A stretch of 64,000 nucleotides of DNA, taken from Desulforamulus hydrothermalis Lam5 = DSM 18033 (GTDB taxonomy: Bacteria; Bacillota; Desulfotomaculia; Desulfotomaculales; Desulfotomaculaceae). Of this stretch, positions 4,607 to 27,146 are shown piece by piece. Positions within the stretch are counted from its first letter, which is position 1. Every line of letters begins with the position of its first letter. Position numbers and translations under genes: made by a program. The stretch is from assembly GCF_000315365.1 (NCBI RefSeq), contig NZ_CAOS01000011.1, positions 62,266 through 126,265 of the forward strand. Reading direction: 5' to 3'. The notes below the pieces were generated by a model, which was not told the origin of the DNA, did not search any database, and saw only the letters and a program-made list of their open reading frames with translations.

Positions 4607-5911
<1,305 letters not shown>

Positions 5912-23216: not shown

Positions 23217-23316
23217 ACCAAACCTCTTTTCCCTTATAAAGTATTTTCCTTAGTTAGTTCTTAATCAAAATTTGCGTTAATGCCTGGTCAAACAACTCAC
23301 CCCTTATCCTTAATTA

Positions 23317-23336
23317 TTTGTCTTATTTAAGACAAA
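23317..23336. promoter_or_regulatory. 20-nt perfect palindrome upstream of the chemoreceptor gene
   Basis: TTTGTCTTA and TAAGACAAA flank a central TT about 100 nt upstream of the receptor start, in AT-rich DNA. It may be an operator for a dimeric repressor; the regulator is unknown. The rest of 23217-23444 shows no gene. Confidence 0.4.
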
Positions 23337-23444
23337 ACGTCTTATAGAGCAAGTATATAATTTGGCAATCAAAAAAAACAATCAGAATTTTGTTTAGATT
23401 ATACGCCCTTTATATTAAAAAACTTCTGGTTTAACATTACAAAA

Positions 23445-23478
23445 CAATAAAAAAGAGATTGGCAAAACGCCAATCTCA
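23445..23478 (-). terminator. Terminator of the pflBA transcript (distal copy of duplicated hairpin)
   Basis: On the minus strand GAGATTGGC-gttttGCCAATCTC is followed by a T6 run. A second copy of the same hairpin (23746-23769) overlaps the pflA stop but has no T run. Confidence 0.8.
23455..23478. repeat. 24-nt direct repeat (terminator hairpin), copy 1
   Basis: Identical to 23746-23769. The two copies flank the structured element 23479-23745, as a target duplication would. Confidence 0.85.
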
Positions 23479-23745
23479 CAGACTGTAGACAAAGGTTGCA
23501 AAACAAAAATTAAGGTGGTTTTATGATCCCCTGCCGGCGACTTGTCGAAGCACCGGTCACAGCACTTGATGAGCGAAGGAGCCATTGGGGTGGCGCCCAC
23601 AGGACGTGGGCGCCAGCCGAACCGGGCCAGGATGGCCCGTTTGAGGCGACCCCAAGGGCGACCGTAGCGAATCACAGTGCTGTCGGTGCGTAGACCGGAG
23701 CCAAAGGGGATCATAAACCACTGATAATGTTTGTCGACACGCTGA
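23479..23745. mobile_element. MITE-like structured repeat element, copy A (full)
   Basis: A 267-bp segment between the two 24-nt repeats. Its ends are imperfect inverted repeats: GTAGACAAAGG... near 23484 and, inverted, GTGTCGACAAACATTATCA at the other side. Both are followed inward by inverted GTGGTTT(T)ATGATCCCC. Internal self-complementary blocks include TGGCGCCCAC/GTGGGCGCCA (23591-23616) and GGGCC/GGCCC (23624-23638). The 39-nt core at 23683-23721 recurs at 28277-28315 (inverted) and 59004-59042 with 2-3 mismatches. No convincing gene is inside. It could be a small non-autonomous transposon or a structured RNA. Confidence 0.6.
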
Positions 23746-23769
23746 GAGATTGGCAAAACGCCAATCTCA
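23746..23769. repeat. 24-nt direct repeat (terminator hairpin), copy 2
   Basis: Same sequence as 23455-23478. Its last three bases are the pflA stop codon on the minus strand. Confidence 0.85.
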
Positions 23770-24501
23770 GATATCGTTAAACATTGCCGTGGCACCGGGC
23801 AGCAGGGAAGCCAGGGCGGCCAGAGCAGCCGGATCGGGAGGGTTCAGGCGGTGCAGAGTATAGGGATAGCCCAGCCGCTGCCACTTATGGACGCCCAGGG
23901 GGTGGTAGGGCAGCAGCTCCACTTTGGCTACCTGGCTGCCCAGGTGTTTAATCAGCTGCCGCAGCTTTGTCAGATGGCGGGCTTGATCATTAATGCCCGG
24001 CAGAACAACATAGCGCAGCCAGAGGGGGATAGCCGCTTGTTTAATATAATCCAGGGCGGCCAGGAACTTATGCCAGTCTTGACCGGTCAGCCAGCGGTAC
24101 TGGTCTTGCTCCGCCGCCTTAACATCCAGCAGCAGTAAATCTGTGTAGGGCAGCACTTTCGCCAGGTGGTCCGGGTCGGCCCAGCCGGAGGTATCCACCG
24201 CCGTATGAATGCCCGCCTGCCGGCACCCCTGCAGCAGGGCGGCGGCAAAGTCCGGTTGCCACAGTGGTTCGCCGCCGGATAAAGTGACACCCCCCTGCCC
24301 CTTAAAGTAAGGCCGGAAGCGGCAAATTTGTTTCACCAGGTCAGCGGCCGCCACCGGCCGGCCGCCGTCGGGCTGCCAGGTATCCGGGTTGTGGCAATAG
24401 CGGCAGCGCAGGGGACAGCCCTGCAAAAAAACCACGCAGCGCAGTCCCGGCCCGTCCAGGGTGCCGCAGCTTTCTATAGAATGAATACGGCCTTGGGTCA
24501 T
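23767..24501 (-). CDS. pflA: Pyruvate formate-lyase activating enzyme
   Basis: A 244-residue radical SAM enzyme that installs the glycyl radical on PflB. The [4Fe-4S]/SAM-binding Cys motif is CPLRCRYCHNPDTW (CxxxCxxC), followed by GGVTLSGGEPL. The frame is open to 24597, but ATG 24501 (MTQGRIHSIESCGT) has AAAGGGG 8 nt upstream and fits the family N-terminus. It begins 19 nt after the pflB stop, so the pair forms an operon. Confidence 0.95.
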   Translation of the reverse strand: MTQGRIHSIESCGTLDGPGLRCVVFLQGCPLRCRYCHNPDTWQPDGGRPVAAADLVKQICRFRPYFKGQGGVTLSGGEPLWQPDFAAALLQGCRQAGIHTAVDTSGWADPDHLAKVLPYTDLLLLDVKAAEQDQYRWLTGQDWHKFLAALDYIKQAAIPLWLRYVVLPGINDQARHLTKLRQLIKHLGSQVAKVELLPYHPLGVHKWQRLGYPYTLHRLNPPDPAALAALASLLPGATAMFNDI

Positions 24502-24520
24502 CCGGTTAACCCCTTTCCGT

Positions 24521-26755
24521 TTAAAATCGTTCAAAAAAGGTGCGCTGCAAAACTTCCAACTGGTGAGCCCGGGATAATTTGGTAAAGTGTACCGCATATC
24601 CGGACACCCGGACAGTTAACTGGGGGTATTGTTCCGGCTGTTCCATGGCCCGCAGCAGGGTTTCCCGATCTAAAACGTTAACATTTAAATGATGGGCCTG
24701 CTGGCTGAAATAGCCGTCCAGAATGTTGATTAAATTGGCTACCCGGTCGGCGTGGCTTTTGCCAAGGGCCCGGGGTACGATGGAAAAGGTGTTGCTGATG
24801 CCGTCCAGGCAGGAGCGGTAAGGTAATTTGGCCACCGAGTTTAAACTGGCCAGGGCACCCTGGGTATCCCGTCCGTGCATAGGGTTGGCACCCGGGGCAA
24901 AGGCGGCGCCCCGGGGCCGGCCGTCCGGCGTGGCGCCGGTTTTTTGGCCGTACATAACATTGGAGGTAATGGTCAGGATTGACAAGGTATGGCGGGCCTG
25001 CCGGTAGGCGGCATATTTTTGCAGGTTGGCGTGAAAACTTTGCACCAGCTCAACCGCTAGCTGATCCACCCGGTCATCGTCATTGCCATATTTGGGGAAG
25101 TCCCCCTCAATTTTAAAATCCACGGCAATTCCCTGCGGGTTGCGCAAGGGGTATACTTTGGCGTATTTAATGGCACTGAAGGAATCCGCCACCACCGACA
25201 GCCCGGCAAGGCCAAAGGCCATCAGCCTGTCTGCCTGGCTGTCATGCAGCGCCATTTGCAGGCGCTCGTAAGCGTACTTATCGTGCATGTAGTGAATGAC
25301 ATTCATGGTATTAACGTATAGTTGGCACAGCCAGTCCTGCAACTGCAGGAAATTGCTTTTTACCTTTTCATAATCCAGCACTTCGCCTTCCGGCAAGGGG
25401 ATGGCCGGCGCCAGTTGGCGGCCGGTAATCTCGTCCCGGCCCCCGTTGACGGCCAGCAGCAGCAATTTGGGCAGATTGGCCCGGGCACCAAAAAACTGCA
25501 TTTGCTTGCCTATTTGCATGGCGGAAACACAGCAGGCGATGCCGTAATCATCACCAAAGATTGGCCGCATTAAATCATCATTTTCGTACTGCACCGAACT
25601 GGTTCTAATGGAAACGGCGGCGCAAAACTCCTTAAAGGGAGCGGGCAAATTCTCAGACCACAGTACCGTCAGGTTGGGCTCAGGGGAAGGCCCCAGGTTA
25701 ATTAAGGTTTGCAAAAAACGATAAGAGTTTTTGGTAACCAGGGTGCGGCCGTCCAGGCCCTGGCCGCCGATGGCTTCGGTAATCCACATGGGGTCACCGG
25801 CAAACAACCGGTCGTATTCCGGCGTTCTTAACTGCCGGGCCAACCGCAGCTTAATCACCAGCTGGTCCACCAGCTCCTGGGCGGCTGCTTCGGTTAGGCG
25901 GCCGGTTTGCAAGTCCCTTTCAATGTAGATGTCTAAAAAGGTGCTTACCCGCCCCAGGGACATGGCAGCGCCGTTTTGCTCCTTAATAGCTGCCAGGTAA
26001 GCAAAATATAACCATTGAAAGGCTTCCCGGGCGTCAGCGGCCGGGCGGCTGATATCAAACCCATAACCGGCGGCCATTGTTTTTAACTCTTGCAAAGCCT
26101 TAATTTGTTCCCTGATTTCTTCCCGCAGCTGAATGATTTCCGGCGTCATGGGCTGCTTGGACAGGCGGGCCAGGTCTTGTTCTTTGTGATCCAGCAGCCG
26201 GTCAGTGCCATACAGGGCAACCCGCCGGTAATCACCGATAATTCTGCCCCGGCCGTAGGCATCCGGCAGGCCGGTAATAATGCCCAGGCTGCGGGCCAGA
26301 CGCATGTCTTCGGTATATGCGTCAAAAACCCCGTCGTTGTGAGTTTTTCTGTACTTGGCAAAAAAATCTTCCAACTGCGGATCCAGGTTGTAACCGTAGG
26401 CCTGGCAGGCCTGCCGGGCCATGCGCAGGCCGCCGAAGGGATTAACCGAGCGCTCCAGCGGTTTTTCGGTTTGCAGCCCTACAATAACTTCCAGCGCCGG
26501 GTTCACATAACCGGGACCGTAAGCAGTGATGCCGCCGGCCCGGGTGGTATCAATGCTCAGCACACCGCCCTGGGCCCGTTCTGCTTGAAACAGGCTGAGG
26601 CACTGTTGCCACAATTGTTTGGTTTTGTCGGTGGCCTGGCAGAGAAACCGGGGGCCACCGGTGTAAGGGGCATAGTTGTTTTGTATAAAATCCCGCACAT
26701 CTACCTTTTGTTGCCAGTTTACGCCCCGAAATCCGTCCCATTCCGGTCTGGTCAT
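24521..26755 (-). CDS. pflB: Formate C-acetyltransferase (pyruvate formate-lyase)
   Basis: A 744-residue glycyl-radical enzyme converting pyruvate and CoA to acetyl-CoA and formate. The adjacent catalytic cysteines are in [11 protein letters not shown]. The C-terminal glycyl-radical motif is [27 protein letters not shown] is also typical. The frame is open to 26818; ATG 26755 ([11 protein letters not shown]) has GTGAGG 5 nt upstream, whereas the earlier ATGs have no ribosome binding site and fall in the leader hairpin. The operon is pflB-pflA. Confidence 0.96.
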
Positions 26756-26772: not shown

Positions 26773-26839
26773 TAAAAAATAAATAACCGCCCGGGCCATC
26801 ACACAATGACAAAAGCATTGCACTGATTGCCCAGGCGGT
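26773..26839 (-). terminator. Terminator-like hairpin in the pflBA leader (possible attenuator)
   Basis: On the minus strand ACCGCCTGGGC and GCCCGGGCGGT (26829-26839 / 26786-26796) pair over 11 bp. An inner CAATG/CATTG stem lies between them, and a TATTTATTTTTT tract follows, ending about 17 nt before the pflB start. Its position upstream of the gene suggests regulated read-through. Confidence 0.65.
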
Positions 26840-27146
26840 CGGCAGCTTGACAGTTACAATCCCCTGTGGTGCTCCACATAATCCCGCCGGTCATGTAACT
26901 GTTTATTATCTTGTTTAATGTTTACGCAATGAATTATAAACAGATTAGCTGCATTTGGCAACTGTTTTTTTATTCTTGCAGGATTTGCCAAAACATTCGG
27001 ATATTACAACTTTCGGTTTGCCCGGCGGTGGCATAAAATAAAATCAAGGTAAAATAAATTACTGTTAATGCCTTTGGAAAACCCTCGAAAAGCTGGAACA
27101 ATTATGTTGCCATACACGTCTACCAAAGTAAAAGGAGGGATGTTCC
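26840..27146. other. Divergent intergenic region between pflB and the anti-sigma-like gene
   Basis: It must hold the pflBA promoter (minus) and that of the gene at 27147 (plus). It is AT-rich with several TATAAA-like motifs, but I could not fix either promoter with confidence. No gene is visible. Confidence 0.4.

Follow-up and report, generated by a model that had tools for sequence, protein, structure and literature searches.

The 266-bp element beside the gene called pflA is very probably a non-autonomous IS1182-type transposon (MITE) that targets hairpins and duplicates each of them whole, moved by a transposase that picks the target by shape. The targets are hairpins of unrelated sequence, the junctions lie at the base of the stem, and a whole hairpin stands on both flanks. 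A comparable empty site (L018, see below) has a single hairpin, and the full-length IS1182 elements of congeners behave alike. Positions refer to the window, that is, the whole stretch of 64,000 nucleotides that was analysed. The features of the site are as follows.

23454-23478, no strand assigned: distal copy of the 25-nt hairpin, with the T run of the pflA terminator (minus strand, 23449-23454)
23479-23744, plus strand: 266-bp non-autonomous element, very probably an IS1182-type MITE; multicopy, with its own hairpin at each site and ends that match congener IS1182 elements
23479-23493, plus strand: left terminal inverted repeat, CAGACTGTAGACAAA; supported by the genome matches to the 20-nt left end
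23543-23696, plus strand: TwoAYGGAY RNA core (RF01731); 59 bits against a gathering score of 43, with covariation
23592-23614, plus strand: first loop hairpin of the core, AGGAC in the loop (RF01731 alignment and copy comparison)
23623-23639, plus strand: second loop hairpin of the core, AGGAT in the loop (same basis)
23730-23744, minus strand: right terminal inverted repeat, CAGCGTGTCGACAAA (inverted-end comparison)
23745-23769, no strand assigned: proximal copy of the 25-nt hairpin; without the T run
23767-24597, minus strand: gene called pflA (putative radical-SAM activating enzyme); the label comes from the first-pass annotation and from a reading of the protein sequence

The pflA site

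An exact repeat search finds the identical 25-mer AGAGATTGGCAAAACGCCAATCTCA at both hairpin positions, with a spacing of 291, and the element with its inverted ends fills the interval between them. The first-pass annotation had described a 24-nt hairpin on both sides of a 267-bp element: the identity of the two hairpins and the presence of the element hold, with the lengths corrected to 25 nt and 266 bp. The hairpin arm GAGATTGGC occurs five times in the window, compared with 0.47 expected, and none of 100 shuffles reaches five. Four of these occurrences are the arms of the two hairpins, and the fifth is at 4805. The label "Copy A" had suggested several copies of the element within the window; a search of the 64 kb found this one copy and no second.

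The same annotation correctly placed the pflA stop codon and the T run. The stop codon TGA (23767-23769, minus strand) lies inside the proximal hairpin, and the distal hairpin, with TTTTTTATTG after it on the minus strand, alone keeps the terminator T run. The distal hairpin is also the only terminator-like site in 23300-23900, in a scan that expects 0.8 by chance and is weak by itself. With the T run left at the distal hairpin, the proximal one is probably weakened as a terminator, and transcription of pflA may continue antisense across the element as far as the distal copy. A promoter scan gave consensus-level matches only. Among the 80 loci retained from named genomes, none has a protein closer than 60% to the pflA product. 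Separately, the minus strand carries a ZTP riboswitch (RF01750, 68 bits) at 26822-26904, immediately upstream of the gene preceding pflA.

The element family in the host genome

The host genome (2.69 Mb, 16 contigs, 99.94% complete) contains many further copies. The 20-nt left end, allowing up to three mismatches, has 81 matches in the genome, compared with none for the reversed pattern. A comparison with plasmid records gave no match. A first-look search returned 182 candidates, and the best 40 of these 182, which were scored, are 91-95% identical to the copy at pflA. Flanks were then read for these 40 copies, for 18 elements of other or equal size, and for 40 further places. Of these 40 places, 13 hold near-full-length copies; the copies at the remaining 27, which are incomplete, broken, rearranged or truncated by the end of the stretch read, stay outside the counts. 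The resulting near-full-length set comprises 58 copies of 231-270 bp or so, and flanks were considered to match at a score of at least 28.

By this measure, a copy's own two flanks match in 52 of the 58 cases, compared with 2 of 3306 pairings of swapped flanks, both of which are the pair L033 and L039, which share one surrounding sequence. (Here a stretch longer than the element is present twice in the genome.) For the first 40 copies alone, the corresponding values are 38/40 and 2/1560. Six copies fall below the threshold, namely L034 (24), L240 (27), L263 (12), L270 (23), L284 (18) and L302 (14), and no repeat was seen in the flanks of L263 and L302. Since each copy's own hairpin is common to its two flanks and not to other copies, the hairpins are best read as target-site duplications, which supports the interpretation offered in the first-pass annotation. 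What that annotation missed is that the hairpin itself is the target, and that dozens of hairpins have been struck alike.

Nearly all of the flanking repeats are hairpins, the sequence of which is particular to each site. In the 32 nt adjoining the element, a hairpin with an MFE of -5 or lower is present on both sides of 50 copies and on at least one side of 57 (of 58). When 26-nt pieces were compared for the first 40 copies, a hairpin was found in 100% of right flanks and in 26% of stretches 150-300 nt away. The distance from the junction to the base of the stem is 0-2 nt in 38/38 left flanks and 36/38 right flanks. The duplication ranges from 14 to 31 nt (median 22.5 nt) and tracks the length of the hairpin (r = 0.71, a partly circular value since both lengths are taken from the same flanks). 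The duplication at pflA had been called unusually long for a transposon; long it is, but for this type of transposon long duplications are the rule here.

The element thus has the features of a MITE: it is short (266 bp) and multicopy, has inverted ends and target duplications (52/58 copies with repeats), and carries no transposase gene. The short ORFs within it are of 126, 56 and 54 aa, and the copies read differ in length. Two loci, L241 and L242, may be longer elements.

Partner elements, empty sites and target choice

Full-length insertion sequences with the same ends are found in congeners. In genome G001, both ends of a 1604-bp IS match the MITE pattern with no mismatches, and its transposase scores 456 bits against NF033551 (cut-off 270), matches PF13751, PF05598 and PF01609, and reaches 22.6 bits against the IS1634 profile (cut-off 100). 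Genome G008 has five IS1182 copies, the protein of which is 76% identical to the G001 transposase and the ends of which have 0 and 1 mismatches to the MITE pattern. A related full-length IS that combines the same ends with an IS1182 transposase, and that could serve as the mobilising partner, is therefore present in each of these two genomes. A 1501-bp IS1182 element is present three times in genome G004, with ends that are 2-3 mismatches off the pattern. The same hairpin stands on both sides of all 10 IS1182 insertions examined: two of two in G001, each pieced together from two contig ends, three of three in G004 (between perfect hairpin copies of 22-34 nt) and five of five in G008 (also between perfect copies). 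The matching ends, together with the same hairpin duplication by the IS1182 elements of congeners, therefore identify the element as an IS1182-type MITE that targets hairpins, with the high probability given at the outset. Against this reading stand the six copies that score below 28, the imperfect ends in G004, the differing sequences of the hairpins at the pflA site of relatives and the unlike left and right hairpins of most RNA-bearing copies in G007 (both below), and the lack of a matching transposase in the host. In the host genome itself no autonomous partner was found among the 16 contigs: the best match to the G001 transposase has 19 bits, and the best host protein reaches 87 bits against NF033551, below the cut-off.

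An alternative is that a DDE transposase has a stagger fixed at about 24 nt and favours the bases of hairpins, so that the duplication merely resembles the hairpin. The median of 22.5 nt agrees with this, and many terminator hairpins are about that long. However, the length of the duplication varies between 14 and 31 nt in step with the hairpin, with the circularity noted above, and the hairpins that the IS elements of G004 and G008 duplicate exactly measure about 21 to 34 nt. We consider a fixed stagger improbable.

Even less probable is an RNA-guided transposon, in which the internal RNA would lead the element to its hairpins. This RNA is strongly structured and is present in every full-length copy, the latter by definition of the class. 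The shorter elements argue otherwise. Among the matches listed for pairs of ends, there are at least nine elements of 111-134 bp, plus elements of 42, 51 and 57 bp, and a flanking repeat is present in 11 of 12 elements of 42-134 bp (scores 22-44; L226 is the one without). Repeats are shown by all three of the 42-57 bp elements and also by most of the 111-134 bp class; these short forms lack most or all of the RNA core. No flanking repeat was found at the 212-bp element L235. The 42-bp form is little beyond the two ends, and therefore nothing inside the element is needed in cis for targeting. The IS elements likewise show the same repeats, and the targets share no sequence. The 42-57 bp copies and the IS elements without the RNA make it plain that the cargo RNA is not needed in cis, whereas a guide RNA may act in trans. 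Note that two of the short elements, L228 and L229 on host contig C10, represent one duplicated stretch: both are 114 bp long and identical, they share their flanks, and they lie 718 bp apart; a third end is found at 85781, with the same spacing onward.

Comparison with relatives shows sites of this type without the element. At the site of family member L018, all eight same-genus genomes, as judged by eye, lack the element and show a single hairpin behind the upstream gene. The downstream flank begins 37-75 nt on in seven of the eight; in G007 a weak match begins 220 nt on. The stem in G002, G005 and G008 resembles the host stem (the CTCCGTTT arm or near it). The comparison with empty sites that had been proposed for the pflA copy is thus passed at this other site. 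At pflA itself the outcome is divided: in three of the six readable relatives (G001, G006 and G008) the element is absent and a single hairpin follows the stop, but these hairpins are of other sequence, no clear hairpin was seen in G002, G004 and G005, and the exact pflA hairpin was not found in unduplicated form among the six. Neither of the observations named beforehand as contradicting the duplication, two hairpins in a relative without the element and unrelated hairpins of the same sequence elsewhere, was made. That the hairpins belong to the element, which would carry its own terminators, would account for hairpins flanking nearly every copy, but it is refuted for this family by the unrelated hairpin sequences from copy to copy (see the swapped pairings above) and by the single hairpin already present at the empty L018 site, and we give it almost no weight.

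We propose the following scheme for hairpin targeting by the IS1182-type MITE, which is read from sequence comparisons. An IS1182-family DDE transposase would recognise a hairpin-forming inverted repeat, often an intrinsic terminator, presumably as a cruciform or on single-stranded DNA. The element would be joined to the foot of the stem on both strands, and filling of the two gaps would leave one whole hairpin on each side. The MITE would have been moved in trans, by an IS1182 partner that is presumably now absent from the host genome.

The nearest known systems are IS1272 and TnSha1 of staphylococci, which resemble the present case in the transposase family of the partner elements (IS1182) and in having stem-loops of unrelated sequence as targets (PMC5678879, PMC4923244). 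TnSha1 and IS1272 are reported to sit in hairpins with partial deletion, five of seven sites being terminators confirmed by RNA-seq (PMC4923244), and some IS1182 members are stated to target palindromes, after a review cited in both papers. The difference is in the outcome: IS1272 is reported to delete or replace the stem-loop without duplication (PMC5678879), whereas the host MITE and the congener IS elements duplicate it whole. Replacement of the IS1272 type is not what we find here, as the whole hairpin is on both sides. However, that paper also proposes, as pathway b, that joining at the 5' feet would duplicate the stem-loop instead, and the host pattern fits this branch. Here are dozens of natural examples of a branch drawn as a possibility for IS1272, in which transposition reads the shape of DNA and leaves the entire hairpin in two copies. 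Insertion into a terminator may be safe, and this could account for a repeat that has reached dozens of copies in a genome of 2.7 Mb.

Other systems share single traits with this one. IS1634 and IS1549 make long direct repeats of variable length (PMC2266710), but the partner transposase here is of the IS1182 family, as the two profile scores above indicate, and the repeats here are hairpins. Insertion sequences that target REP palindromes also use palindromes; their target is described as one repeat family (PMC1525189), whereas the hairpins here share no sequence. In the open-access literature, we found no IS1182-type MITE and no duplication of a whole terminator by the IS1182 family; since subscription papers and ISfinder lie outside this search, curators may know such duplications.

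The RNA carried by the element

The core of the element matches the TwoAYGGAY RNA family, with RF01731 scores of 59-65 bits across much of the host family. The loops, AGGAC and AGGAT, differ from the AYGGAY of the model in being AGGAY, one base shorter, and here the RNA is the cargo of a multicopy mobile element. In an alignment of 25 cores from 11 genomes, a two-sided change occurs at least once in 29 of the 34 predicted pairs, and of 850 cells 32 are G-U compared with 10 A-C, which favours an RNA of this strand; both counts come from one alignment of related sequences, from which the structure was also predicted. In earlier reports, TwoAYGGAY is described as probably an RNA and probably not cis-regulatory (PMC2864571), and CsrA binding is proposed for it (PMC4333381). 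The open-access literature searched, subscription papers being outside it, contains no TwoAYGGAY in a mobile element, so as far as our searches reach this placement is new; it makes the role of the family testable.

Of 113 genomes of the class, 27 carry RF01731 (21 with scores over the cut-off), compared with none of 14 controls; sets of more than 40 genomes were scored using stricter filters that lose weak matches. In the set of 60 genomes, to which this also applies and in which up to 38 candidates were scored for each genome, the highest copy numbers are at least 38 (G000), 36 (G046), 34 (G007), 28 (G019), 10 (G016) and 9 (G038). The context differs among these genomes. In G016, the left and right hairpins agree in three of the four copies inspected. 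In G007, 27 copies were read (L203-L210, L243-L261): left and right hairpins agree at L207 and, as judged by eye, at L249, whereas they differ in most RNA-bearing copies, and several of these differing hairpins recur on another copy (the left of L244 is the right of L248, and the right of L251 is the left of L257). Recombination between copies may explain this mixing, as may misassembly of the draft (70 contigs, 72% complete). In the copies inspected in G046, G038 and G019 (five, one and three; L211-L218, L222), the core lies in other repeats, some of which have ends like AACTCAACTTTCGCA. Among 16 core loci in relatives, the flanking repeat score reaches 28 at L041 (G001) only, and none was found at the core loci of G002, G005, G008 and G009.

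Binding of CsrA by the cargo RNA is perhaps its function, a lead suggested by sequence comparison. For it are fewer core changes after insertion, the near-unchanged AGGA and co-occurrence with csrA. Changes seen in a single copy amount to 0.34 per site in the core (53 in 155) and 0.63 outside it, the ends left aside (49 in 78; p = 0.0023), in a sample of 58 copies for which similarity served to select 40 and paired ends another five; the lower rate may therefore come from this biased choice, or from gene conversion. Over the 58 copies, the AGGA bases have no changes in one loop and two in the other, and the base that follows varies in 10 and 17 copies. Among the 60 genomes of the set named above, csrA is present in 17 of 18 genomes with RF01731 and in 21 of 42 others. 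In the overlapping class set the values are 22 of 27 carriers and 40 of 86 others (Fisher p = 0.0017), or 17 of 21 when over-cut-off matches alone are taken (p = 0.008), both tests ignoring relatedness and genome size. Against the lead are the five carriers without csrA (G009, G061, G068, G089 and G095), the loops that are one base short, the biased choice of copies and the lack of an orientation bias. A broader proposal, that TwoAYGGAY is a mobile module of terminator-targeting MITEs and other repeats, kept by selection and binding CsrA, such that a transposon seeded a host network with dozens of CsrA sites beside terminators, is speculative and in our judgement rather unlikely.

The orientation counts also bear on how the RNA might be expressed. 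If host genes transcribed it, the RNA would be expected in sense along the direction of the terminator; 45 cases comprise 12 sense, 13 antisense and 20 unclear, a distribution without bias that counts against such transcription.
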